A stretch of DNA of 32,500 nt from contig CAIPYE010000016.1 of NCBI GenBank assembly GCA_903869265.1, positions 1 to 32,500 of the forward strand. The letters are read 5' to 3'. The DNA is from an uncultured delta proteobacterium (lineage in GTDB: Bacteria > Desulfobacterota > Desulfobulbia > Desulfobulbales > Desulfurivibrionaceae). Both the position numbers and the translations under genes were made by a program. The notes beneath the pieces were generated by a model, which saw only the letters and a program-made list of their open reading frames with translations, did no database searches and was not told the origin of the DNA. Numbering within the stretch: position 1 is the first letter of the stretch; each line of letters starts with the position of its first letter. Below, one piece after another: positions 10,851 to 32,500 of this stretch.

Positions 10851-11837
10851 TTATTTTACCGGCTGGTTTTGCGTGGTTTTCATGATGAGTTCTTGGGATT
10901 TGAGCAAGACCTTGGTGTCCGGAGGTACGGACTGGGTCAGCCAGGTGTTGCCGCCGATGACCGATCTGGCGCCGATGATGGTATCGCCGCCCAGGATGGT
11001 GCTGCCTGCATAGACCGTGACATCGTCTTCAATGGTTGGATGGCGTTTGCTCTGGCGGTCAAGATCGCCGGAGTCGTCCCGTTTGAAGGACAGAGCGCCC
11101 AGGGTTACGCCTTGGTAGAGCTTGACCCGTTGGCCGAGGACACTGGTCTGCCCAATGACCACGCCGGTGCCGTGGTCGATGAAAAACGAGGCGCCGATGG
11201 TGGCGCCGGGGTGGATGTCGATACCGGTGATGCTATGGGCGTATTCGCTCATGATGCGGGACAGGATGGGAACTCCCAGCGTATACAGCTCGTGGGCAAC
11301 CCGGTAGACCATGATGGCATAAATGCCGGGATAGCTGAAGATGATTTCGTCAAAACTGCCGGCGGCAGGGTCGCCTTCATAGGCCGCCCGCACGTCTGTG
11401 GCTAGAATCGCCCGTAGGGCGGGTAGCGAGTTGATGAAATTGAAAGCGTTTTCCTTGCCCGCGTCTTCGCAGTGCTGGCAGCTTGTGTCGTGGCGGAGGC
11501 ACTCATGCCGGATGGCGTTGGTGATTTCCCTGGTCAGCTTTTCATAGAGGCCGGAAATTTCCAGACCCAACTGGTATTTGAGACTGACCCGGTCAATGCC
11601 CTGGTTGCGGAAATAACCGGGAAAGAGGATGTCGCGGCAGGACTCCAGGATGTCGATGATGTGCTGGCGACTGGGCAGGGGTTCCGCTTCGACGTGCTCA
11701 AAGCAGGCGTTGTTGTAGCAGGTGTCCACCACCTGATCAACGATTTGCGGAAGTCGGCCCCGGAAGTCGGAGACGGTTGGGTGTTCCTTGGGGCAGGATT
11801 CGTTCTGGGCAATGGGGATTTTTTTGGTCTGGGGCAC
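10851..11837 (-). CDS. cysE: Serine O-acetyltransferase (EpsC/CysE type)
   Basis: The 328-residue product transfers acetyl from acetyl-CoA to serine, giving O-acetylserine for cysteine synthesis. A helical N-terminal region (to about residue 190) precedes a left-handed beta-helix with DIHPGATIGASFFIDHGTG near residue 215, VVIGQTSVLG, QGVTLGALSF and HPTIEDDVTVYAGSTILGG. The His in DHGTG is the family's catalytic one. The start is GTG at 11837, nine bases after GGAGG; a longer frame to 12116 runs into the MFS gene and is rejected. The N-terminal region has an unusual Cys cluster, CLRHDTSCQHC, around residues 112-125, which could bind metal or sense redox. It stands alone, with a possible promoter and inverted repeat upstream. 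Confidence 0.9.
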   Translation of the reverse strand: MPQTKKIPIAQNESCPKEHPTVSDFRGRLPQIVDQVVDTCYNNACFEHVEAEPLPSRQHIIDILESCRDILFPGYFRNQGIDRVSLKYQLGLEISGLYEKLTREITNAIRHECLRHDTSCQHCEDAGKENAFNFINSLPALRAILATDVRAAYEGDPAAGSFDEIIFSYPGIYAIMVYRVAHELYTLGVPILSRIMSEYAHSITGIDIHPGATIGASFFIDHGTGVVIGQTSVLGQRVKLYQGVTLGALSFKRDDSGDLDRQSKRHPTIEDDVTVYAGSTILGGDTIIGARSVIGGNTWLTQSVPPDTKVLLKSQELIMKTTQNQPVK

Positions 11838-11901
11838 GGCGTGTCCTCCGGATTTTTGCGTAGAAACAGGGAAAGAATCAAATAGTGGAACATGGATTAA
11901 A

Positions 11902-11930
11902 ACAGTAACAACGATTTGTTGTTCTCTCAA
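11902..11930 (-). promoter_or_regulatory. Possible promoter with inverted repeat for the serine acetyltransferase
   Basis: On the - strand TTGAGA (11925-11930) and TACTGT (11902-11907) are 17 bases apart. Between them is a perfect inverted repeat AACAAC-N5-GTTGTT (11907-11923) that would sit under RNA polymerase. The -35 is good and the -10 is poor. Confidence 0.3.
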
Positions 11931-11976
11931 GAATTCCCTGAAATTATCTGGTGTCTTTGTGGAGAGGGGTGGATAT

Positions 11977-13155
11977 TCAGGCGGCAGGTCTGGCCTGAGA
12001 GATAAAAAACAACAAGCTTGTCGTTGCCAAAACGGTGCAGGCACCCAGGAAAGAGGCGGGTAGACCAAAAGAGGCGGCAAGGAGGCCGCCCAATAAGGGC
12101 CCGAGGCTGTGGCCAATGTCCATGATGGAACCGAGGATGCCCATGGCCGAGCCTTGGGTGGTGTCTTTGCTCAGGTCGGCGATATGGGCGGCGCTGGCGG
12201 AAGTGACTACTGAGATGGTCAGCCCTAGAAGAATGCTCAAGACGAGCAGGGCAATAAAGGATCCGGCTATTGCGAAAAAAGCGATACAGATGCCTGCTGC
12301 AATCGCGCCGACAAATATTTGCCTTGGCCTGCCGTGGCGATCTGAGAATCGGCCCATGATCGGTTTTGCCAGGGCAATGGTGATAATCTGGGACGAGAGG
12401 CATAGGCCGATTTGGTAAGGGCTCAGCCCCGCCATGAGAGCGTGGGCAGGGAGAAAGGTTTCAAAGGTTCCGTAGGCGAAGAGGATGGCTGCTTCCACTC
12501 CGCAGGTTAGCATGATGCCTCGGTTTCCTAAAAGTTCTTTGACCCCTTCCCGCCAATGCGGGCGGCGGCCTGGTTTTTTTGGAGTGCTCTGGTTAAGGTC
12601 GGGAAGGAAAAAGAGACTGAAGAAAACGGCAAGCCCGGCAATCCCGCATACAATGTAGAGCGTATGAAAGCCGGCTGCTTGGTCCGTTGCGTAAAATCCG
12701 AGAATGGCGCCGCCCAGAGCTGGAGCCATAAAGCGCCCCAGCAGAGTGGCGGTGGAAAACCAGCCCATTTTTTCGCCCCTTCCTTTTTGGAAAAGATCCG
12801 AGACCATGGCCATTGCCACAGGCACGAAGATGGCGGTGGCTAGGCCGTGATAGAAGCGAACTAGGGCCAGTTGCCAGATCTCTCGGACTACCAGATAGAG
12901 AAACGGGGCCGTGGCGAAGACGATGGCGGAAAATATGAGCATGCGTTTCCGGCCAATCCGGTCCGAGAGGATACCAGCCGGAAAGCTGAACAGAATGCCG
13001 GTGCCTGCGGAGATCGAGGCGATCAGCCCGACTGCAGCAGGCCCGCCGCCAAGGTGGCTGACAAATAAAGGAAGCGCCGGACTCTTGGAAATGGTGCTGC
13101 TGAAGATGGCTATTAGCCCCACCCCGCAGAGCAGTTTGAATGGAGAGAGAGGCAT
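11977..13155 (-). CDS. Major facilitator superfamily transporter, substrate unknown
   Basis: The 392-residue integral membrane protein has about twelve hydrophobic segments. The MFS signature loop between helices 2 and 3 reads SDRIGRKR (residues 64-71), and the second half repeats it as GRFSDRHGRPRQ. The two halves are joined by a basic, Pro-rich loop (NQSTPKKPGRRPHWR) near residue 200. The pattern is that of drug/H+ antiporter-like members (DHA1 type), which export small molecules using the proton gradient, but no substrate can be read from the sequence. The ATG at 13155 has AAGGAATG about ten bases upstream. It is divergent from the ABC exporter across 165 bases and ends 139 bases before the serine acetyltransferase. 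Confidence 0.85.
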   Translation of the reverse strand: MPLSPFKLLCGVGLIAIFSSTISKSPALPLFVSHLGGGPAAVGLIASISAGTGILFSFPAGILSDRIGRKRMLIFSAIVFATAPFLYLVVREIWQLALVRFYHGLATAIFVPVAMAMVSDLFQKGRGEKMGWFSTATLLGRFMAPALGGAILGFYATDQAAGFHTLYIVCGIAGLAVFFSLFFLPDLNQSTPKKPGRRPHWREGVKELLGNRGIMLTCGVEAAILFAYGTFETFLPAHALMAGLSPYQIGLCLSSQIITIALAKPIMGRFSDRHGRPRQIFVGAIAAGICIAFFAIAGSFIALLVLSILLGLTISVVTSASAAHIADLSKDTTQGSAMGILGSIMDIGHSLGPLLGGLLAASFGLPASFLGACTVLATTSLLFFISQARPAA

Positions 13156-13320: not shown

Positions 13321-14286
13321 ATGATTCCGGCAAATTCTCAACAAAAAAAAATATCTGGCTCCCACGGCAGCCAGGCAGTCGTTTCCGTCGTCGGCCTTAC
13401 CAAGCGGTTCGGCGAGCGGCTCGCGGTGGACAACATCTCCTTTGCCATCCAACGGGGTCGGTGTGTTGGCTTTCTTGGTCCCAACGGGGCCGGGAAAACC
13501 ACTTGCATCAATATGCTGCTCGGTCTGGTGGAAAAAAGCGCGGGCGAAATCAGAATTTTTGACTTGGAGGCGCCGCGCTTTCATCGTGAGATCAAAGCCC
13601 GCATCGGGGTGGTGCCCCAGGCGGACAGCCTTGATCCTGACTTGAGTGTGCAAGAGAATCTGCGCACCTATGCCGGGTATTTCCGAATCCCGCGTCGGAT
13701 TGCCCGTACGCGGGTCGAAGAACTTCTGCATTTTTTCGCTCTGCACAACCGACGGGACGAGATCATCGAGCATCTGTCCGGAGGACAGCGGCGGCGGCTG
13801 CTCTTGGCCCGTGCCCTGCTCAACGAACCAGAGCTGCTGATTTTGGACGAACCCACCATCGGCCTTGACCCCCAGGCCCGACATCTGATTTGGGAACGCC
13901 TCGCAATTCTCCAGGCCCAGGGAACCACCATGCTTCTGACCAGCCATTATCTCGATGAGGTTTCCCGCCTGAGTCAGCAGGTGTTGATCCTTGACCATGG
14001 CCAGGTCGTGGTGCAGGGTGAACCGCGGCAGCTCATCACTGATATGGTCGGGCTTGAGGTTTTCGAGGTGGATGGAACCGCTGCTGAGCTTGATGCACTG
14101 GCAGCATCTTTTAGGCAGTGCAATGCCACGCAGGAAAGGGTGGGGGACAAGTTGTACGTTTATGCCAGGGAGGACTGTTCCCACCTGGTGAAGGTGCTGG
14201 GTGAAGCAGGCAGCTGGGTGCGGCGTCCGGCCAATTTGGAGGATCTCTTTATTCAACTCACCGGCAGGTCGTTGAGGGAGTCATGA
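13321..14286 (+). CDS. ABC-2 type transporter, ATP-binding subunit
   Basis: The 321-residue ATPase powers an export-type ABC transporter. Walker A is GPNGAGKT (residues 53-60), the signature LSGGQRRR starts at 152, Walker B LLILDEPTIGLDP starts near 172, and the switch His is in LLTSHYLDE. About 75 C-terminal residues follow the nucleotide-binding domain, as in NodI/CcmA-like or drug-export ATPases. Its stop overlaps the start of the permease gene by four bases (ATGA), so the two are translationally coupled. The ATG at 13321 has only a weak ribosome site, and the first 20 residues are low-complexity. Substrate unknown; drug, lipid or polysaccharide export are all possible. Confidence 0.93.
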   Translation: MIPANSQQKKISGSHGSQAVVSVVGLTKRFGERLAVDNISFAIQRGRCVGFLGPNGAGKTTCINMLLGLVEKSAGEIRIFDLEAPRFHREIKARIGVVPQADSLDPDLSVQENLRTYAGYFRIPRRIARTRVEELLHFFALHNRRDEIIEHLSGGQRRRLLLARALLNEPELLILDEPTIGLDPQARHLIWERLAILQAQGTTMLLTSHYLDEVSRLSQQVLILDHGQVVVQGEPRQLITDMVGLEVFEVDGTAAELDALAASFRQCNATQERVGDKLYVYAREDCSHLVKVLGEAGSWVRRPANLEDLFIQLTGRSLRES

Positions 14287-15041
14287 ACGGGTTCTCTTTC
14301 TGGACAATCTGGCTGCGCAACGGGCGGGTCTGGAAAAAGCATATTCTGGCCACCCTGATCGGCAATCTGGGCCAGCCCCTGTTGTTTCTCCTGGCCATGG
14401 GCTACGGACTTGGTCGGGACATGGCGCAGGTGGATGGCTTGACCTACCTGCAGTTTATCGCCCCTGGGCTGGTTGCCTCTGCGGTGATGTACAGCGCCGC
14501 CCTTGAAACAACCTACGGTTCTTACACCCGGCTCACTGTGCAGAAAACCTACGAGGCCATCCTGATGACCCCCCTTGGCGTTGTTGATCTGGTTCTGGGG
14601 GAGATTGTCTGGGGGGCGAGCAAGGGGGTGTTGTCCGGGGTCATCATGTTGCTGGCCTTGCCCCTTTTCGGGGTGATACCTTCCCTTTGGGTCGTTGCCC
14701 TGTTGCCGGTGCTGTTTCTTTCCGGCATGTTTTTCTCCGCCTGTGGCCTTATCATGACGGCGTTGGCGAAAAATTATGATTTTTTCAACTACTTCACCTC
14801 GCTGGTCATTACCCCGCTCTTTCTCTTCTCCGGGATTTTCTTTCCGGTGCAGACCATGGCCCCGCCTGTCAGAGGCTTTCTGGAAATGTTGCCTCTGACT
14901 CCCATCGTCAGCCTGGCCCGGATTCTCTGTTATGGTCGCTTCGGCGAACCGATCCTGCTGAAAATCCTTGGTTCTCTCCTGGCCACTGGCTGCGCCGTAT
15001 GGCTGGCCGGATATCTTCTCCGGCGGCGTTTGATTCAGTAG
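14283..15041 (+). CDS. ABC-2 type transporter, permease subunit
   Basis: The 252-residue membrane protein has six hydrophobic segments and the layout of ABC-2 permeases (NodJ/DrrB-like). A short cytoplasmic N-terminus (FWTIWLRNGRVWKKHI) is followed by a family-typical segment with YGSYTRLTVQKTYEAILMTPL near residues 77-97, and the conserved region PLFLFSGIFFPV near 176-187. It pairs with the ATPase just upstream. The TAG at 15039 is only ten bases from the stop of the convergent gene on the - strand, and no terminator hairpin fits between. Confidence 0.92.
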   Translation: MNGFSFWTIWLRNGRVWKKHILATLIGNLGQPLLFLLAMGYGLGRDMAQVDGLTYLQFIAPGLVASAVMYSAALETTYGSYTRLTVQKTYEAILMTPLGVVDLVLGEIVWGASKGVLSGVIMLLALPLFGVIPSLWVVALLPVLFLSGMFFSACGLIMTALAKNYDFFNYFTSLVITPLFLFSGIFFPVQTMAPPVRGFLEMLPLTPIVSLARILCYGRFGEPILLKILGSLLATGCAVWLAGYLLRRRLIQ

Positions 15042-15051
15042 CCGGAGTACC

Positions 15052-15297
15052 CTACAGGTGTTGTTCGATAAAACGGCGGATCATCTGTGGGGTGAGGATG
15101 AACCCGGTGAGGATATCGTTGCCGATTTTGATCGCGGGCACGGTCCTGATCCCGGCTTGACGAATCCGTGTCAGATTGGTGGCGACCTCGATGGTTTCGA
15201 GGTCGAGGTGTGGGGAGCTGGCAACGATCTTTTTCAGGATGCGGCTCACATACAGACAGCGTGGGCAGAGGATGGTGCGGTAAAGTTCTATTTTCAT
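15052..15297 (-). CDS. Small thioredoxin/glutaredoxin-fold protein with CPRC motif
   Basis: The 81-residue protein has the thioredoxin-fold pattern: strand MKIELYRT, then a CPRC redox motif (Cys11, Cys14) at the start of helix 1, and the cis-proline loop RTVPAIKIG (Pro54). The CxxC spacing suits a dithiol-disulfide reductase, or a glutaredoxin-like protein without a glutathione-specific sequence. It follows the adenylate cyclase by 29 bases on the same strand, so the two are probably cotranscribed. Its ribosome site is weak, again suggesting coupling. The partner is unknown. Confidence 0.75.
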   Translation of the reverse strand: MKIELYRTILCPRCLYVSRILKKIVASSPHLDLETIEVATNLTRIRQAGIRTVPAIKIGNDILTGFILTPQMIRRFIEQHL

Positions 15298-15326
15298 GGC
15301 GCTCGACGGTTGTTCTGGGCTTGGGA

Positions 15327-17327
15327 TTATCGTTCGATCAGGGTTTTGATATAATTCTGTTCGCTCTGTGCCGGGATGAAAATCTCCAGGTTGTTGTTCC
15401 AGCGGCTCACGTAATGTTGGGTGAGCAGGGCGCGAATTGCGTTTTTAAGCTGGATTGGTGTGGTGTATTCCTGAATGAAGTATTCGCCGTAGCTGTTTTC
15501 CGTAACCATGGTCGATTTCAGGGTTTTCGACCCTTTCACCGGTTCCTTTTCGAAGTTGACGATGGCCAGCGCCCGCAGCACGGTTTCCCGCTTGAGCAGG
15601 TTTGCCGGGGAAATGCGGGAAAAATGGATGATGGGAAAGGTTTTTATCAGAAGTTCGGTAAGCTTCTGAATATCCACCAGATCGATGGGTAGGAAATTTT
15701 TTGTCAGATGGAGCTGGGTTTTGGCGGCAAGGATGCCATTGACCAGGAGCCAGACAATCAGCCGGACCAGGTTGTTTTCCCGCTTGATCACCGAATCCAC
15801 ATTGCTTTTTACTGTTTCGTGGTCAAGCTGCCCCTGAAAAGCATAGTAATGAAACTCGCCTTCGTATTTGGTGATATGGATGGTGATATGCTCTTGCGCC
15901 ATCAGGTCGCGGGCAACACTACGGATATAATCGATCTTGTTTTCCTTCTGCTCGTAGAAGGTGAACAGTTTACGGCCCAGGATGGAGATGTCCCGTTCGG
16001 TGATGGTCAGGCCGGTGTCTGCGCCAAAGCTTTTAAAAATCCAGCGCAATCGTTTGTAAGTCTCGATGAGATAATCGTGGACCTTGGCGCCAAAGGCAAC
16101 GAGCTCCTTGTACTTCCAGTTGCGGAAACGTTGGAAGTGGCTGAAATTTTCAGGGAGAAGATGCCATGCCTGCATCATGTCCATGGTTGCTTTCAGGTGG
16201 CTGGTTTGGCCGAATTTGGTATTTTTTTGTGATTCAACCCCCTCAAGCGTCTTGAGAAAGAGGCATTCCTGGATCAGGGAGGCCCGTTTCTGTTCGGCTT
16301 TTTCCTGGGTGTAAAAGGCGATGATATCGCGGGCCAGCAGGATGTATGGGTCAACCTCGGCCAGATCCATGGCACCCTGTTCTGCGGGCGGAAGTTTTTC
16401 TGGATAAGTCACCAGGCATTTCACCCTGTCCGAGAACAGCGGGAGGGTGGTTGTTTCCCCGCGCAGGAGGAGTTCGAGATAGGCAAATTTGATCACCGAC
16501 TTGAACGGGCTGTCCAGCGCCTTGTTCATTTGCCAGAGGCAGGCCCCGAAAATTTCTGATTTGGGGATGTCGGAGAGATAGCCGAGATCAACAAAGTCAT
16601 TGGCCCGGAGCTTGTTGCGCGAAACAAGATTCTGGACAAAGGTCCGGTATTCGCCTTCGGTAAGGCCTGGGGGAATAAACCACCAGAGGAGCATCTTGCC
16701 AGCCACCAGAATATGGGTACGGAAAAGCTCATCCTTGAGCAACAGCTTGAGGGCAGAGCCCGCCGACTCTTCATCCGTCTCCGCCTCAAAGTTGTTTTCC
16801 TTGGTCTGGTCGATGTCCACCAGAAAGAAATGGACTTCCGAGCCCCGTTTCGTGGCCCACTCTTCGATTCCTTTGCATTTCTCCTGCAAAAGCTGCAGCC
16901 CCTTTTTCCCAAGCTCTTCCTTGCGGATGCTGACCCAGTAATCGCAGTCGGAAATCGTCGACTGGGCGATGGTCCCAATACTGCCGATGGTTTTTAAGGA
17001 GTGGATGCAGGGTTTTTCGGTAAAGGGGGAAGGCCTGTCGATCCGCATGGCTGTCGAGTTTGGGAAATAGCGGCGAAAGAGCTCGTGGGGAAATTCTTCT
17101 GTCGGGTTGAAGAGGTGAATGCCATAGGGACAATCCGCATCATCGACAAAGCCGGGGAGGTCCGGGTAGTTGCTGTGGAGCAGATAGGGGAGAACCTTGA
17201 GCAGAAGATTGCCCTGATTCGTGTTGAAAAGCACCGCCTTGGCTTTCCGTTCCTCATTATACTTGAGGTAGCGTGTCAGCTTTTGCTGGAAGGAGTTTGG
17301 GGCGGGTTCCGGTTTGGTATCATCCAT
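15327..17327 (-). CDS. cyaA: Class I adenylate cyclase
   Basis: The 666-residue protein matches the enterobacterial CyaA family, which makes cyclic AMP from ATP. The best conserved block is GSIGTIAQSTISDCDYWV (residues 115-132), corresponding to the E. coli GS...QS...SDLDIW nucleotidyltransferase-type active site, with Asp127 and Asp129 as likely metal ligands. Other matching segments are HSNYPDLPGFVD, LLQEKCKGIEEWA, FFLVDID, ELFRTHILVAGKMLLWW and IFGACLWQMNKALDSPFKSVIKFAYLE. It is about 180 residues shorter than E. coli CyaA, mostly at the C-terminal regulatory end. AAAGGA lies about 13 bases before the ATG. An inverted-repeat element lies immediately upstream. No CRP-type receptor gene is in the window. 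Confidence 0.88.
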   Translation of the reverse strand: MDDTKPEPAPNSFQQKLTRYLKYNEERKAKAVLFNTNQGNLLLKVLPYLLHSNYPDLPGFVDDADCPYGIHLFNPTEEFPHELFRRYFPNSTAMRIDRPSPFTEKPCIHSLKTIGSIGTIAQSTISDCDYWVSIRKEELGKKGLQLLQEKCKGIEEWATKRGSEVHFFLVDIDQTKENNFEAETDEESAGSALKLLLKDELFRTHILVAGKMLLWWFIPPGLTEGEYRTFVQNLVSRNKLRANDFVDLGYLSDIPKSEIFGACLWQMNKALDSPFKSVIKFAYLELLLRGETTTLPLFSDRVKCLVTYPEKLPPAEQGAMDLAEVDPYILLARDIIAFYTQEKAEQKRASLIQECLFLKTLEGVESQKNTKFGQTSHLKATMDMMQAWHLLPENFSHFQRFRNWKYKELVAFGAKVHDYLIETYKRLRWIFKSFGADTGLTITERDISILGRKLFTFYEQKENKIDYIRSVARDLMAQEHITIHITKYEGEFHYYAFQGQLDHETVKSNVDSVIKRENNLVRLIVWLLVNGILAAKTQLHLTKNFLPIDLVDIQKLTELLIKTFPIIHFSRISPANLLKRETVLRALAIVNFEKEPVKGSKTLKSTMVTENSYGEYFIQEYTTPIQLKNAIRALLTQHYVSRWNNNLEIFIPAQSEQNYIKTLIER

Positions 17328-17349
17328 GGGACGGGTTGTTTCCTTTTAG

Positions 17350-17430
17350 GAGCCGTTACGAAATATTTTTGTATTCTTGATTATCGCGGTAGCAGTAGCG
17401 TAAGCGGCGCTGCTTCCTACGTTACGGCTC
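17350..17430. repeat. 81-bp element with terminal inverted repeats
   Basis: GAGCCGTTACG (17350-17360) and CGTTACGGCTC (17420-17430) are inverted copies with one mismatch out of eleven. Inside is a second, GC-rich hairpin (GTAG.AAGC.....GCTT...CTAC read on the - strand). It lies in the 169-base gap between the folP stop and the cyclase start, ending just before the cyclase ribosome site. It looks like a small palindromic repeat or MITE-type element, or a structured leader RNA. I find no second copy in this window. Confidence 0.45.
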
Positions 17431-17496
17431 TTTATGCCGGTTAGGTTCATCCAGAGGATGGCTTTATTTTGTTGCAGCAGCCATAGCGGCGACGGC

Positions 17497-18426
17497 TTAG
17501 GGCGCCTGGGATATGGCCTCATGCAGGCGAACCGCCTGCATGGTTTTTTCCACGTCATGTACGCGAAGAATATCCGCCCCTTGTGTGGCGCAATAGGATG
17601 AAATCATGGCCGTTGCCAGATCCCGGTCCTGAGCCTCCAGAGTAAGGAGCTTGCCGATGAAACCTTTACGGGAATGCCCGATAAGGAGCGGGCATTCCAG
17701 TTTTTTAAACGCACGCAGATGTTTGAGGATTGTCAGGTTATGCGCTACAGTCTTGCCGAATCCGAGGCCGGGGTCAACAATAATCCGTTGTCGGTCAAGT
17801 CCCTGTTGTGTTGCCCAGGATATACGTTCAGCCAGAAAATCCCTGATTTCCTGGATAACATTATCGTACACCGGTTCGTCCTGCATGTCTTTGGGAGTTT
17901 TGCGCATATGTATGAGAATGACCGGAGCCTCATGGGCAATGGCGATCCGAATCATGTCAGGATCGAAACGCAACCCGCTCACATCGTTGATGAGATCCGC
18001 GCCCGTGTTCAAGGCTTGGCGCGCCACCTCTGCCTTGGTCGTATCAATGGAAATCGGAATGCTGCTATGCAGTGCGCGGATGCAGGCAATGGCGGGAAGA
18101 ACCCGACGCAGTTCCTCGTCTTCCGATACCGGTTCGGCATAGGGCCTGGTTGATTCGCCCCCCACATCAATGAGGTCTGCTCCGCTGTTCAGCATGGTCT
18201 TGATCTGGGCGGAGAGGGCCTCATTTTGGGTAAAGCGGCCTCCATCGGAAAAAGAATCCGGGGTGACGTTGAGAATGCCCATGACCAGAGGGCGGGGGCC
18301 AAAGGTTATGGTTTTGTTTTTGCTTATGATCTGCAAGGGGCTGCCTGAAAATACGTGAGCCCTTTGGGCGGGCAGAGTGTCAAAGGGCTCAGAGTGTTGG
18401 AAAGGGAAAGCAAGGGCATCGGTCAT
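17497..18426 (-). CDS. folP: Dihydropteroate synthase
   Basis: The 309-residue TIM-barrel enzyme condenses p-aminobenzoate with the pterin diphosphate in folate synthesis and is the sulfonamide target. Signature 1 is GILNVTPDSFSDGG (about residues 50-63), then DVGGESTRP, the pterin-site DLINDVSG, DPGLGFGK and IGHSRKGFIG. The N-terminus has about 25 residues more than E. coli FolP before signature 1; no better internal start with a ribosome site is visible. It starts nine bases after the ftsH stop, the same ftsH-folP order as in E. coli, so the two are cotranscribed. The region after its stop holds an inverted-repeat element rather than glmM. Confidence 0.95.
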   Translation of the reverse strand: MTDALAFPFQHSEPFDTLPAQRAHVFSGSPLQIISKNKTITFGPRPLVMGILNVTPDSFSDGGRFTQNEALSAQIKTMLNSGADLIDVGGESTRPYAEPVSEDEELRRVLPAIACIRALHSSIPISIDTTKAEVARQALNTGADLINDVSGLRFDPDMIRIAIAHEAPVILIHMRKTPKDMQDEPVYDNVIQEIRDFLAERISWATQQGLDRQRIIVDPGLGFGKTVAHNLTILKHLRAFKKLECPLLIGHSRKGFIGKLLTLEAQDRDLATAMISSYCATQGADILRVHDVEKTMQAVRLHEAISQAP

Positions 18427-18435
18427 CCGGTGATT

Positions 18436-20265
18436 TTATTGCGGCGTTGAAATCTCCACCGCAGGGGATGTTTTGGTCTCACGCCCCATGATTGTTTGGA
18501 TGTCGTCCAGACAGAGGGTTTCCTTTTCAAGGAGAGCCTGGGCAATGGACTTCAAAACCGCAATGTTTTCCGAAAGCAACTGGTGGACCTTTTCGTTGGC
18601 CTTCAGAACAATGCGTTTGACCTCGTCATCAATCCGGACTGCGGTCGATTCGCTGTAGTCGCGGTGCTGCGCGATTTCCCTGCCCAGGAATATCTGTTCT
18701 TCCTTTTTGCCGTAGGATAGGGGGCCCATCTCCTCGCTCATGCCCCATTCGCAGACCATTTTTCGCGCCAGCTGGGTGCAGCGCTCGATGTCATTGCCGC
18801 TGCCGGTGGTGATTTCGCCAAAGGTCAATTCTTCCGCCACCCTGCCGCTGAGGAGGATGCAGAGATTGTTCTGGAGGAAGGAACTGGCGTAGGTGTGTTT
18901 TTCATCCACCGGCAGCTGCTGGGTAAGGCCAAGGGCACGGCCCCGGGGGATAATGGTTACTTTGTGGATGGGATCGGTGCCGGGCAGCAGCATGGCCACC
19001 AAAGCGTGTCCTGCCTCGTGATAGGCGGTGATCTCTTTTTCCTTCTCGGTGATGATCATGCTGCGGCGTTCGGCCCCCATCATCACTTTGTCCTTGGCGT
19101 GCTCCATGTGGACCATGGTGATTTTGTCCGCATCGGCCCGCGCTGCGAGCAGCGCGGCCTCGTTTACCATGTTTTCCAGATCGGCTCCTGAGAAACCTGG
19201 GGTGCCACGGGCGATTACTTCCCATTTCACATCTTCCGCGATGGCTTTTTTCTGACCGTGGACTTCCAGGATTTTTTCCCTCCCCTTTACGTCCGGCACC
19301 GGCACCACCACCTGCCGGTCGAAACGGCCGGGTCTCAGCAGGGCCGGGTCAAGCACATCGGGACGGTTGGTGGCCGAGATAATGATGACGCCTTCGTTGG
19401 ATTCAAAGCCGTCCATCTCGACCAGCAGCTGATTCAGGGTCTGCTCCCGTTCATCGTGGCCCCCGCCCAGGCCTGCGCCGCGGTGGCGGCCCACCGCGTC
19501 GATCTCGTCGATGAAGATGATGCAGGGGGCATTTTTTTTGCCCTGGATGAACAAATCACGCACCCGGGAAGCGCCAACACCGACAAACATTTCGACAAAA
19601 TCGGAGCCGCTGATGGAATAGAAGGGAACCTCGGCCTCGCCGGCCACGGCCTTGGCCAGCAGGGTTTTGCCGGTGCCCGGTGCGCCGGCAAGCAAAACAC
19701 CCTTGGGGATGCGGCCGCCCAAGCGGGTAAATTTTTTGGGATCTTTCAGGAAATCGATGATCTCGGAAAGCTCTTCCTTGGCCTCTTCAATGCCTGCGAC
19801 ATCGGCAAAAGTAACCTTGGTCTGATCCTTGTCCAAGAGACGGGCCCGGCTTTTGCCAAAGCTCATGGCCTTGCCGCCGCCACCCTGCATCTGGCGCATG
19901 AAAAAAATCCAGACGCCAATGAGCAGGAGCATGGGGAACCAGGAGACCAGGACGGTGACGTACCAGGGCGACTCTTCCTTCTGTTTGACCAGGATATTGA
20001 CCTTGGCCTTGCGCAGGATGGGAATAAGCTCTGCGTCGGCAGGGGGGGTGATCACCTTGAAGTCCTTGCCGCCGCTGCCTTTGCCTGTAACTTCATCCGC
20101 CTGGATGTTTACCGAGGAAATCTGGCCGGATTCAATGCTGGTCAGAAAATCGCTGTAGCTCATTTCCACTACGGAGGATTGCGGTTTATTGAACAGGTTG
20201 AAAAGCAGGATCATGGTGAGGCCGATTACCAGCCACATGGACAAATTTTTATAAAAGCTATTCAA
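18436..20265 (-). CDS. ftsH: ATP-dependent zinc metalloprotease FtsH
   Basis: The 609-residue membrane AAA+ protease degrades misfolded membrane proteins and regulatory substrates. The cytoplasmic start [10 protein letters not shown] is followed by two membrane segments (about residues 11-27 and 104-122) around a periplasmic domain. The AAA domain has Walker A GAPGTGKT (194-201), Walker [13 protein letters not shown], the pore motif FVEMFVGVG and second-region-of-homology arginines in RPGRFDR. The zinc protease motif is HEAGH. I place the start at TTG 20265: AGGAGG lies six bases before it, and family proteins begin M-N-S-F-Y-K-N. The longer frame with an upstream ATG would translate its own Shine-Dalgarno as Arg-Arg. 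folP follows in the same operon. Confidence 0.96.
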
Positions 20266-20336
20266 GCAGAGCCTCCTCATTATTGGCAAGTTGCAGGGGA
20301 TAATCCTGCGAAAGATGCCGCATATTTCTTTTTCAG

Positions 20337-20374
20337 CCGCCTGGTGCGATCATGGAACCAGGCGGATTTTTTTT
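20337..20374 (+). terminator. Terminator-type hairpin on the + strand between carB and ftsH
   Basis: A perfect 9-bp stem CCGCCTGGT / ACCAGGCGG with an 11-base loop is followed by A and eight T, a textbook terminator for + strand transcription. Both neighbouring genes are on the - strand, and on that strand no U-run follows the stem. It would stop antisense transcription entering carB from the ftsH side. Confidence 0.7.
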
Positions 20375-20454
20375 GCTTTCTCACCATAAGTCAGACGCGA
20401 GAGAAAGTCCATAGGAGGCAGTCGCAGCCCTCTTTTTTTTGCGCGGCCCCTCAA

Positions 20455-23400
20455 TTATTCGAAATATTCCTGTACCGACTTGGGCTCCATGGATTCCTGC
20501 TGCATGGTGCCGATGGCCTTGACCATGGACTCTGCCCCGGCAATGGTGGTGGTGTATGGCAGGTGGTAGTTCAGGGCCGCCCGACGGATGGTATAGGCAT
20601 CTTCCGTGGTTCTGGTGCCAAGGGAGGTGTTGACAATCCACTGGATCTGCTTGTCCTGAATCTTGTCGAGGATATGCGGCCTGCCCTCGGAAATCTTGTG
20701 GACACTGGTGCAGGCAACTCCGTTTTCTTCCAGGATTTTTGCGGTGCCCCGGGTGGCGAGAATATTGAAGCCCAGGGCAATGATCTTCTTGGCAATGGGA
20801 ACGATGGCTGGTTTGTCGCTGTGGCGCATGCTTAAGAGAACATTGCCTTCGGTGGGAATCTTCTGGCCCGCAGCCAGCTGTGATTTGGCAAAGGCAAGGC
20901 CAAGGCAAACATCCATGCCCATGACCTCGCCGGTGGATTTCATCTCCGGACCCAGCAAGGTGTCCACGTTGTCAAAACGGTCAAAGGGGAAAACCGCTTC
21001 CTTGACCGCATAGTGCGAGACCTTGACTTCTTCGGTGAGGCCCAGCTCCGGCAAGGTCTTGCCGAGCATGACCATGGTGGCCAGCTTGGCGAGGGGGACG
21101 CCCGTTGCCTTGCTGACAAAGGGAACGGTCCGCGAGGCGCGCGGGTTCACCTCAAGGACATACAGCGTATTTTCCTTGACGGCATACTGGATATTCATCA
21201 ACCCTTTGACCTTGAGTTCTGCAGCCATGGCTCTGGTCGCATCCTTGATGGTCTCGATCATTTCCTTGGAGATGGAGTGCGGCGGGAGAACGCAGGCGGA
21301 ATCTCCGGAATGGATACCCGCTTCTTCGATGTGCTGCATGATTCCGCCGATGATGGTGTTTTCTCCATCGGAGATGGCATCCACATCGATTTCCACCGCA
21401 TCCTTCAGGAATTTGTCGATCAGGATGGGCCGGTCGGGTGAGACGTCAATGGCCGAATTCATATAGGAGGCCAGGTCTTTTTCATTATAGACGATACGCA
21501 TGGCGCGTCCGCCAAGGACGTATGAGGGGCGAACCACCACCGGATAGCCGATTCTCACGGCGATGTCCAAGGCCTCATCCGCGGTCTGGGCTGTGCCGTT
21601 CTCCGGTTGCAATAGATTCAGTTTGTGCAGAAACTGCTGGAAACGTTTGCGGTCTTCCGCCCGATCAATGGAGTCTGGAGAGGTGCCGAGGATGGGCACG
21701 CCTGCCTTGGCCAGGGGCACCGCAAGATTCAACGGGGTCTGCCCACCGAATTGGACGATAACGCCTTCTGGTTTTTCTTTTTTGATGATATGCAGCACAT
21801 CTTCCCGGGTCAGCGGCTCGAAGTACAGTTTGTCCGAGGTGTCGTAATCGGTGGAAACCGTTTCCGGGTTGGAGTTGACCATGATGGATTCAATACCCAT
21901 TTCCTTGAGGGAGAAAGAGGCGTGGACGCAGCAGTAGTCGAATTCGATGCCTTGGCCGATGCGGTTGGGGCCACCGCCTAAAATCATGACCTTGCGGCCC
22001 GTGGTTTCCCTTGCCTCGTCTTCCACCTCGTAGGTGGAGTAATAGTAAGGGGTGTATGCCTCGAACTCGGCGGCGCAGGTGTCAACCAGCTTGTACACCG
22101 GCTGTACGCCAAGCTTTTCCCGCAGTTCCCAGACATCCTCTTCCGAGGTGCCGGTGAGAAAGGCGAGTTGGCGATCGGAGTACCCGAGCTGTTTGACCTC
22201 TTGGAGAAAGTCATGGTCCAGGCCGTTAAAGCCTTTTTCCCGGATGCGGGTTTCCATTTCGACAATCTGCTTGAAATTGTGCAGAAACCATGGGTCGATA
22301 AAGGAAATTTCGTAAATCTTTGCAACGCTCATGCCCCGGCGCAAAGCCTCGAACACCTGAAAATATCGTTTGGAGTTCGGTTTGCGCAACCCTTTTTCAA
22401 GGTCCTCTTGTTCCATGGACTCAAGGTTGAATTTAGGATCCGCGCCAAAGCCGCTCACCCCGATTTCCAGGGAACGCATCCCTTTCTGGAAGGCTTCCTT
22501 AAAGGTGCGGCCAATGGCCATGGTCTCGCCCACCGACTTCATTGCTGTGGTGAGAAAATCATCGGCCTCGGGGAACTTTTCAAAGGTGAAGCGGGGGATC
22601 TTGACCACGCAGTAATCGATGCTCGGCTCAAAGGCCGCCATGGTTTCCCGGGTGATGTCGTTCTTGAGTTCGTCCAGGGTGTAGCCCACGGCCAGCTTGG
22701 CGGCGATCTTTGCAATGGGAAAGCCCGTTGCCTTGGAGGCCAGGGCGGAACTTCGGGAAACCCGGGGGTTCATTTCGATGATCATCAGTTCGCCGTCTTT
22801 CGGGTTCACGGCAAACTGGACGTTGGAGCCGCCGGTTTCCACGCCGATCTCCCGCATGATGGCGATGGCGGCGTTGCGCATTTCCTGGTATTCGCGGTCG
22901 GTCAGGGTCTGGGCCGGGGCCACGGTGATGGAGTCTCCGGTGTGTACCCCCATGGCGTCAACATTCTCGATGGAACAGATGATTACCACGTTGTCGGCCT
23001 TGTCGCGCATCACTTCAAGCTCATACTCCTTCCAGCCAAGCAGACTCCGCTCGAGCATGACCTCGGAATTCATGCTCAGGTCGAGGCCGGCCTTGCAGAA
23101 TTCATCGAGTTCCTGGGAGTTGTAGGCAATGCCGCCGCCGGTGCCGCCCAGGGTGAAGCTGGGGCGGACAATGATGGGAAAACCGATCTGCTCGCTGGCA
23201 CCCTTGGTTTCTTCAATGGTGTGGATGATGGCGCTTTCCGGCACCTTGAGGCCGATCTTGCGCATGGCATCCCTAAAGGAGTCCCTCCCTTCGGCCTTTT
23301 TGATAACCGCGATATTGGCGCCGAGCAATTCCACCCCGAATTTTTCCAGCACGCCCAGTTCGGCGACCTTGATGGCGGTGTTGAGGGCGGTTTGCCCTCC

Positions 23401-23670
23401 CAGGGTGGGCAGGAGTGCGTCCGGCCGCTCCCGTTCGATGATCTTGGCGACCATCTCCGGGGTGATGGGCTCGATGTAGGTTCGATCGGCAATCTCTGGG
23501 TCGGTCATGATGGTGGCTGGGTTGGAATTGATGAGGATGACCTCATAGCCTTCCTCTTTCAGAGCCTTCACCGCTTGGGTGCCGGAATAGTCGAACTCGC
23601 AAGCCTGGCTGATGATGATGGGGCCGGAGCCGATAATCAGAATCTTTTTAATGTCGGTTCTTTTAGGCAT
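20455..23670 (-). CDS. carB: Carbamoyl phosphate synthase, large subunit
   Basis: The 1071-residue subunit makes carbamoyl phosphate from bicarbonate, ATP and the ammonia channelled from CarA, for pyrimidines and arginine. It shows the internal duplication of the family: [20 protein letters not shown] and its repeat [20 protein letters not shown], each heading a pre-ATP-grasp plus ATP-grasp unit (about 130-335 and 675-865). The C-terminal domain (about 935-1071, with [16 protein letters not shown]) is the allosteric MGS-like domain. Length equals E. coli CarB. AGGTAAG lies about eight bases before the ATG. It follows carA by 86 bases. Confidence 0.97.
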
Positions 23671-23756
23671 CGGATTTCTTACCTGCTTGTGTTTATGCCG
23701 CTTTTGAAACGGCTGAGTGGTCGGTACGCTGTCGGTTGCCGGTGTTGTTCCCGCTG

Positions 23757-24869
23757 CTAGGGCTGCATCATTTCGATGAATCTGTCAAAAAGATACAACG
23801 AGTCATGTGGGCCGGGGGCATTTTCCGGATGATACTGCACGGAAAATATCGGGTACTTTTTGTGTCGCATGCCCTCGACACTGTTGTCGTTGAGATTGAT
23901 ATGGGTCAGCTCGATATCGTCCGGATTCAAGGTGGTTGAATCAACGCAGAATCCATGATTTTGCGAGGTTATTTCTATCTTGCCGGTGAGGAGATCCTTG
24001 ACCGGCTGATTGGCGCCGCGGTGGCCGAATTTGAGCTTGTAGGTGGTGCCACCATAGGCAAGGCCGAGCAGCTGATTGCCCAGGCAGATGCCGAATATGG
24101 GTTTCTTGCCGAAGAGGGCGCGGATATTGTCGACAATCCCCGGAATGCCGGCTGGATCGCCGGGGCCATTGGAAAGAAAGACGCCATCCGGATTCATGGC
24201 CAGAATTTCATTAGCGGTGGTGGTGCATGGGACAACCTGTACAGAACAGTTCCGTTCGGTCAGGAGCCTGAGCTGATTGTATTTCAGGCCGAAATCATAG
24301 GCGACAACCTTGTATTTGCCTGAGGCGGCCGTGCTGAAATTGCTGCCGGGAACGGGTTTGTTGTCGCGCCAGCCATAGGGCTTGGCACAGGTCACTTCCC
24401 GAACCAGATCCCGCCCGACAAGACCGGGAGAATCCTTGGCCTTCTGGATGAGGGATTGCGGGTCGAGATCCTCGGTGGAGACAATGCCCTTTAACGCCCC
24501 GGCATTACGGATGTGGCGGGTAAGAGCCCGGGTGTCGATGCCCTCGATTCCGAGAATGTTGTCCTTTTTGAGGAAGTCGGCAAGCGTCCCGGTTGAACGG
24601 AAGTTGCTGGGAAAGGCATTGTATTCCTTGATAAGGAACGCCTCGACCTGCACCCTGTCCGATTCCATGTCCTCGGGGTTGACGCCGTAGTTGCCGATGA
24701 GGGGGTAGGTCATGGTTACGATCTGTCCCTTGTAGGACGGGTCGGTGAGCACCTCCTGATAGCCGCTCATTCCGGTGTTGAAGACGATCTCGCCGCTGGT
24801 TTCTCCGGAGCCGGTAAAGGATTTTCCTTCGAAGATAGTGCCGTCTTCAAGGGCGATAAGTGCTTTCAT
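23757..24869 (-). CDS. carA: Carbamoyl phosphate synthase, small (glutaminase) subunit
   Basis: The 370-residue subunit hydrolyses glutamine and delivers ammonia to CarB. The N-terminal half has the family segment [21 protein letters not shown] (residues 30-50). The class I glutamine amidotransferase domain has the nucleophile Cys262 in [15 protein letters not shown], with His347 and Glu349 in SVQYHPE completing the triad. Its ATG overlaps the stop of waaA (ATGA), so translation is coupled to that gene. carB follows in the same operon. Confidence 0.97.
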
Positions 24870-27840: not shown

Positions 27841-29402
<1,562 letters not shown>

Positions 29403-29445
29403 TAAAGGATGTACTTCCTGGCAACAGGAAGGCATGCTTGGTCAA

Positions 29446-29485
29446 CCCCATCTTTTACTCACTATTCAGTTTTGAATGATCGCTG
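29446..29485 (+). other. 16S processing stem, 3' arm
   Basis: Complementary to 27699-27742; contains CTCACTATTCAGTTTTGAATG. It lies between 16S and tRNA-Ile. Confidence 0.8.
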
Positions 29486-29515
29486 TTTTGATCACTTAAA
29501 AGAAGAGAAATGAAC

Positions 29516-29594
<79 letters not shown>

Positions 29595-29613
29595 CCATGA
29601 GCCTGGAAAAATG

Positions 29614-29689
29614 GGGGGTGTAGCTCAGCTGGGAGAGCGCCTGCCTTGCACGCAGGAGGTCATCGGTTCGATCCCGTTCACCTCCACCA
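29614..29689 (+). tRNA. alaT: tRNA-Ala (TGC)
   Basis: 76 nt with encoded CCA. Acceptor GGGGGTG/CACCTCC (one G-T), anticodon TGC in the loop CTTGCAC between CCTGC and GCAGG, T loop TTCGATC. The T stem ATCGG/CCGTT has a T-T mismatch at its second pair. Standard partner of tRNA-Ile in the spacer. Confidence 0.96.
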
Positions 29690-29713
29690 TTTTGCCACAA
29701 TGAAGTGTAAAGT

Positions 29714-29754
29714 GGAGAAGGTAAAATAAACTTTTGGTTTAATTTACCTTCTCT
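29714..29754 (+). other. Long hairpin in the tRNA-Ala to 23S spacer
   Basis: GAGAAGGTAAA and TTTACCTTCTC form the base of a stem of about 17 bp (two mismatches) around a short loop. It lies 25 bases after tRNA-Ala and may act in pre-rRNA processing. The following 110 bases to 23S are A/T-rich and hold no gene. Confidence 0.5.
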
Positions 29755-29866
29755 ATTATGCATTTTGCATGAAAGCAGCATTGCTGTTTTGTAGATCTTT
29801 GATAATTGAATATTTTGTTTTTGTTGTACCCAAATATAGCTGAGTATAAAAGATCAAGCGTTTTTT

Positions 29867-32500
<2,634 letters not shown>

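Follow-up and report, generated by a model that had tools for sequence, protein, structure and literature searches.

In the E. coli paradigm, the class I adenylate cyclase is activated by the phosphorylated PTS, as set out in PMC4005916. Class 1 and class 2 cyclases were described in 2005 as relatively narrow in phylogenetic distribution (PMC1183210). The class I CyaA of Vibrio cholerae AJ10 is reported in PMC13079933 to be light-responsive, so an input other than the PTS has already been claimed for this class. Among the matches listed in a narrow search of the open-access literature, none dealt with a class I cyclase from Desulfobulbales or sulfate reducers, or with control of such cyclases by thioredoxin.

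The DNA analysed here (the window) spans a complete contig (G000:C16, 32,500 bases) from a 2.82-Mb genome. This genome is akin to Desulfurivibrio, which belongs to the Desulfobulbales, in agreement with the desulfobacterial host proposed in the first-pass annotation. The same annotation placed a class I cyclase gene (cya) 29 bases from a gene for a small dithiol protein, and both open reading frames, the gap between them (15298-15326, with both genes on the minus strand) and the CPRC motif were recovered as described (Table 1). Because several families of the order have conserved forms of the cyclase and of the thioredoxin-like protein, neither reading frame is a product of chance. The cyclase is probably a catalytically intact short form encoded in an old gene block, with the thioredoxin-like protein as a syntenic neighbour rather than a dedicated regulator. 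The cysE-like reading frame farther downstream overlaps an MFS gene, and its start is uncertain.

Table 1. Features of the cya region, in window coordinates
Feature	Coordinates	Strand	Basis
cya, short class I adenylate cyclase, 666 aa	15327..17327	-	PF12633, PF01295, NF006981
Nucleotidyltransferase active-site motif G115-S116...S126-D127-C128-D129-Y-W131	16935..16985	-	alignment
Thioredoxin-fold protein (trx), 81 aa, CPRC at residues 11-14	15052..15297	-	PF13192
folP, dihydropteroate synthase, constant upstream neighbour of cya	17497..18426	-	PF00809
ftsH protease, upstream neighbour	18436..20289	-	PF01434 + PF00004
Presumed carbamoyl-phosphate synthase genes carB and carA, at the beginning of the conserved block	20455..24869	-	synteny
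Presumed cysE-like serine acetyltransferase	10851..12116	-	Hexapep PF00132

Judged by its sequence, the 666-aa protein belongs to the class I adenylate cyclases but lacks a C-terminal part of the E. coli type. It has the conserved domains PF12633 (Adenyl_cycl_N; E-value: 2.7e-54, 184.6 bits, cut-off 27) and PF01295 (Adenylate_cycl; E-value: 5.5e-47, 161.1 bits, cut-off 27), the latter over model positions 1-348 of 601 only. All nine of its NCBIfam hits carry the name class I adenylate cyclase. The best of these, NF006981 (638 positions), aligns residues 17-643 of the protein with model positions 24-638 (E-value: 4.8e-210) and also matches each of the 24 aligned relatives (E<=0.001). Because NF006981 is itself short and is matched end to end, the short form has already been catalogued; neither short forms nor class I cyclases in this phylum are new. 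With 699.3 bits against a curated cut-off of 802, the cyclase lies outside the boundary of NF006981 itself, though the short form is known.

A profile built from the 24 relatives, which reach down to 45% identity, aligns with residues 10-564 of the 848 residues of E. coli CyaA (NP_418250.1), and no confident counterpart was aligned with the rest of the E. coli protein (residues about 565-848). The first-pass estimate of about 180 missing residues at the regulatory end was accurate, the difference in length being 182 (848-666). There are 124 columns invariant among the 24 relatives, and 82 of these are the same in E. coli. The two proteins share the PF12633 N-terminal domain and the GS...SDxDxW motif. 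They differ in the C-terminal region, which only the E. coli protein has, and in the residue between the catalytic aspartates, which is Leu in E. coli CyaA and Cys in the Desulfobulbales cyclase.

The catalytic block that had been read as SD-x-D is confirmed by alignment of the motif GSIGTIAQSTISDCDYW with E. coli GSTSSVGQSCSSDLDIW. E. coli CyaA and every row with a letter there share residues S116, S126, D127, D129 and W131, which makes 58 of 58 for Desulfobulbales (59 rows, one of them truncated) and 25 of 25 for other orders. We take the E. coli equivalents to be S103, S113, D114, D116 and W118, which are presumably important for activity.

The AlphaFold2 model of the cyclase has a pLDDT of 80.3 and a pTM of 0.74; residues 118-126, adjoining the motif, fall below pLDDT 50. 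In a VIA-align comparison, model residues 23-434 align with AadA/ANT(9) adenylyltransferases (Z 12.7, 230 residues, rmsd 5.2), with an identity of about 12%, so that the predicted model has the nucleotidyltransferase fold. These enzymes are alike in predicted fold, but AadA and ANT(9) transfer AMP to drugs and do not cyclise ATP. Foldseek gave a less clear nucleotidyltransferase match, with a best E-value of 0.012 and nothing at E<=0.001. Residues 478-557 and 555-666 of the model show a weak likeness to other folds (Z about 4), which was not used. A sequence search with the cyclase returned no solved class I structure at E<=10.

The 81-aa neighbour appears from sequence and model to be a real thioredoxin-fold protein, and disulfide reductase activity is predicted. 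It has the conserved domain PF13192 (Thioredoxin_3; 28 bits, just over the cut-off of 24.8), a domain also matched by 15 of 16 aligned members (E<=0.001). C11-P12-R13-C14, the cis-proline P54 and G65 are invariant in all 16 of these members. The structural model has a pLDDT of 93, and solved thioredoxins are among its best fold matches. The protein resembles the small archaeal-type thioredoxins (PDB 1fo5; phmmer E-value: 5.3e-06) and Pfam Thioredoxin_3 in size, CxxC, cis-proline and fold, and differs from the 1fo5-type proteins in having CPRC where they have CPHC. It scores under the cut-off of every named NCBIfam model that it matches (TIGR02196, 27.8 vs. 88.55; TIGR00411, 27.2 vs. 92.75).

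Cyclase genes were matched in 39 of 58 surveyed genomes, own genome included, and in 18 of 30 genera. Across the phylum, the cyclase profile finds short and long forms in 50 of 395 genomes (34 of 246 genera). Close relatives sit in records named Desulfurivibrio, Desulfobulbaceae, Desulfocapsa, Desulfobia, Deltaproteobacteria or Proteobacteria (52 loci). For the analysis of adjacency, 61 distinct loci were assembled: the window itself, 37 of the 38 further loci from the genome survey and the non-duplicate loci of the named records. The excluded survey locus (G039) has a cyclase gene interrupted by the end of its contig. In 59 of the 61, the sequence covers the 3' end of cya and no less than 350 bp past it; L118 and L119 were dropped.

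The thioredoxin gene lies on the same strand and within 300 bp downstream of cya in 41 of these 59 Desulfobulbales loci and at 301-4,000 bp in four others, counts that are biased towards finding thioredoxin, as the profile was partly built from the same loci. It is absent from the downstream flank (1,077-5,997 bp) in the remaining 14. The median gap is 34 bp, and the thioredoxin gene is never on the strand opposite to cya. Close adjacency is found in 17 of 17 loci within the genus and in 24 of 42 outside it; the first-pass annotation had asked whether the arrangement is kept beyond this strain, and it is. In other orders of the phylum, none of the 25 loci examined (from 25 of 45 such genomes with a cyclase match; downstream flank 0-1,482 bp) had a thioredoxin gene beside cya. 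Taken together, the frequency of adjacency, the small gap and the constant orientation mean that some functional reason for closeness is possible.

The upstream gene order is constant. On the same strand upstream of cya, folP is found within 1,200 bp in 52 of 53 loci with room for it, and ftsH in 47 of 48. The presumed carB is upstream in 28 of 37 cya loci, the others being mostly short contigs. The carA and carB genes precede ftsH-folP in 9 of 16 loci, 8 of which are in genomes without cya. Downstream, cysE is found on the same strand within 6 kb in at least 24 of 52 loci with flanks of 3 kb or more, and por in at least 27 of 52 (flanks 3-6 kb); thioredoxin adjacency is commoner than either, these two counts being lower bounds. 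As cya is tied to folP more than to thioredoxin, the arrangement looks like inherited synteny, and an inherited block is the simplest reading of the cya-thioredoxin neighbourhood. The constancy of folP and ftsH is instructive here, since nobody reads folate synthesis as cAMP control.

The two genes can also be found apart. In the 58 genomes, cya is present in 39 and the thioredoxin gene in 35; 29 have both (including G034, which has them on different contigs and is counted under both), 6 have only the thioredoxin gene, 10 have only cya and 13 have neither, so that 16 carry just one of the two. Seven of the 19 calls of missing cya are not judgeable, with no folP found in G017, G018, G021, G026, G048 and G057, six of the genomes that have neither gene, and a contig that ends inside folP in G053. 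Gaps of the kind seen in G048, G053 and G026 weaken the presence counts, and G048 and G053 are still scored as lacking cya on a CarB tree of 52 genomes. On that tree, cya changes at least 6 times and the thioredoxin gene at least 8 times. In the four independent pairs that differ in cya, the thioredoxin gene changes the same way in an average of 0.4, the other way in 0.1 and not at all in 3.5, which is an underpowered comparison giving no sign of coupled gain or loss. The suggestion that the pairing ties cAMP to thiol redox state finds no support in these counts or in the closer tie of cya to folP. The CPRC-cyclase pair shows no sign of being a dedicated redox switch, and its support stops at adjacency. 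This separability was seen because genomes lacking one partner were examined, and it illustrates how far guilt by association can be trusted: even a gene that stays adjacent in most loci of the order proves separable.

Neither PTS_EIIA_1 (PF00358, EIIA-Glc) nor PTS-HPr (PF00381) has a match in own genome; the same searches found them in 5 and 7, respectively, of 14 control genomes, E. coli included in both cases. Classical sugar-PTS input to the cyclase is therefore unlikely, and both the C-terminal region and the EIIA-Glc partner that mark the enterobacterial PTS-regulated CyaA subfamily are missing here. Of the two-part proposal that cAMP production answers thiol redox state and not a sugar PTS, the second part thus agrees with the searches; the first does not fare as well, given that either gene occurs without the other. 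The region shows a class I cyclase whose host genome gave no match to EIIA-Glc or HPr.

Own genome has seven cNMP-binding domains, of which one is in a CRP/FNR-type protein, one stands alone and the others are fused to HATPase, Ser/Thr kinase, T2SS/T4P ATPase, CBS-DUF294 and HDOD domains. Cyclic AMP-binding CRP-type regulators are expected to have an arginine at a particular pocket position. The sole CRP/FNR-type (cNMP-HTH) protein found in own genome, L174, reads FAEAAVFTGSTFPAH where this arginine is expected. On inspection by eye, a pocket resembling GE...(P/K)R(S/T)A is retained in four of the fusions, those to kinase, ATPase, HDOD and HATPase. The Ser/Thr kinase-cNMP (L176) and cNMP-HDOD (L179) proteins are possible cyclic-nucleotide outputs other than CRP. 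A T2SS/T4P-type ATPase with a C-terminal cNMP-binding domain is encoded at G000:C15:306094-306345 (L177). This PilB/GspE-type fusion was considered as a specific cAMP output and rejected because it scores at least 159 bits in 51 of 58 genomes, with or without cya. PMC11656802 concerns PilB.

If the thioredoxin-like protein acted on its neighbour, it would reduce a disulfide or a sulfenylated cysteine of the cyclase, for which C107, C128 and C263 are the candidates, and cAMP would be tied to thiol state. Such a switch is unlikely. Apart from the same-strand adjacency, the distribution of the cysteines speaks for it. At C128, inside SDCDYW between the catalytic aspartates, Cys is present in 58 of 58 Desulfobulbales rows that have a letter and in one of the 25 from other orders; for C263 the counts are 59 of 59 and 0 of 25, respectively. 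Two further cysteines are shared with E. coli, C151 (58 of 58 Desulfobulbales rows with a letter and 1 of 25 others) and C355 (59 of 59 and 22 of 25). However, C128 and C263 are as invariant in the 14 loci without thioredoxin as in the 45 with it, and each gene occurs without the other. C107 does track thioredoxin at face value, since Cys stands there in 35 of the 44 thioredoxin-linked rows that have a letter vs. 1 of 14 unlinked rows, but on the supported branches of the cyclase tree this comes down to just two independent pairs and is not significant (the tree held E. coli, 59 Desulfobulbales rows and 8 of the 25 from other orders, with L061, cut short by its contig edge, scored as without C107), and C107 was rejected as a thioredoxin-linked cysteine. 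The order-specific C128 and C263 are, as sequence features, a lead for thiol control and not evidence of it. They might form a built-in switch, often together with C107, in which oxidation at the active site blocks cAMP formation and the CPRC neighbour, where present, is one of the reductases; we consider this quite improbable. If true, we would know of no earlier class I cyclase under redox control, judging from a narrow literature search, and a clade-specific cysteine in the catalytic motif makes the redox hypothesis cheap to test.

A reading compatible with a syntenic, non-regulatory neighbour is that the cyclase shares a transcript with the thioredoxin-like gene, whose product would serve the other neighbours (CysE and the metabolism of cysteine or sulfur) or thiol repair in general. 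This refinement is plausible, if tentative. It agrees with the presence of cysE and por downstream and with two genomes, G045 and G054, in which the order is carA-carB-ftsH-folP-trx-por, with the thioredoxin gene directly after folP and no cyclase found in the genome. In G047 and G055 (loci read in families f12 and f11), on the other hand, the thioredoxin gene is elsewhere, divergent from what we take to be a deacetylase-like gene, so CysE is no fixed partner. That the cyclase is a relic without activity is very improbable. The missing C-terminal part and the failure to see a CRP-type regulator with the canonical cAMP arginine in own genome would fit a relic, but the catalytic residues belong to the 124 invariant columns, and none of the 39 matched cyclase stretches, two of them partial, has an internal stop. 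N-terminal fragments of E. coli CyaA are also active, which counts against a relic.

The preferred reading, an intact short cyclase in an inherited block, can be put as a model. The block, with the order carA-carB-ftsH-folP-cya-trx-cysE-por, is conserved and would be an old chromosomal feature of Desulfobulbales. The N-terminal two thirds of the cyclase (residues about 23-434) would be a nucleotidyltransferase of the Pol-beta type, joined to a helical part; here ATP would be cyclised to cAMP, with the metals held by D127 and D129. The C-terminal segment that answers the glucose PTS in enterobacterial CyaA is missing. As this segment and both of the PTS families searched for are missing, activity may be constitutive or set otherwise, by expression level, ligands or partners encoded elsewhere. 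The thioredoxin-like gene would be a syntenic and probably co-transcribed neighbour with a thiol-reductase job of its own.

Scans of both strands of 14900-20500 found no promoter-like sites where 3.3 were expected and 16 terminator-like ones against an expected 7.3, and are uninformative on co-transcription of cya and the thioredoxin gene. The two strongest terminator-like sites are on the plus strand within the 3' part of folP and antisense to it. The gap between folP and cya holds a palindromic element (17340-17445) with 11-nt arms (17350-17360 and 17420-17430) that are 91% complementary. Pieces of 18-27 bp, mostly from its ends, recur at six other places in own genome, at one of which (L226) both ends lie within 61 bp; the element is perhaps a dispersed REP-like repeat. 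The idea that cya occupies the place of cdaA (diadenylate cyclase) after folP was rejected; the DAC domain is encoded elsewhere (G000:C3:72748-73101) and occurs in 56 of 58 genomes. A NodI/NodJ-like ABC transporter pair (13321-15041, plus strand), which scores below the NCBIfam cut-offs, is convergent with the thioredoxin gene; its permease occupies this position in 16 of 59 loci, every one from the same genus. Both ends of the contig lie in rRNA genes, a usual assembly break, with a partial 5S gene at 1-89 and 16S, tRNA-Ile, tRNA-Ala and partial 23S genes at 27841-32500. A 6S RNA gene is located at 2117-2298 (53.6 bits; gathering score 46.4).
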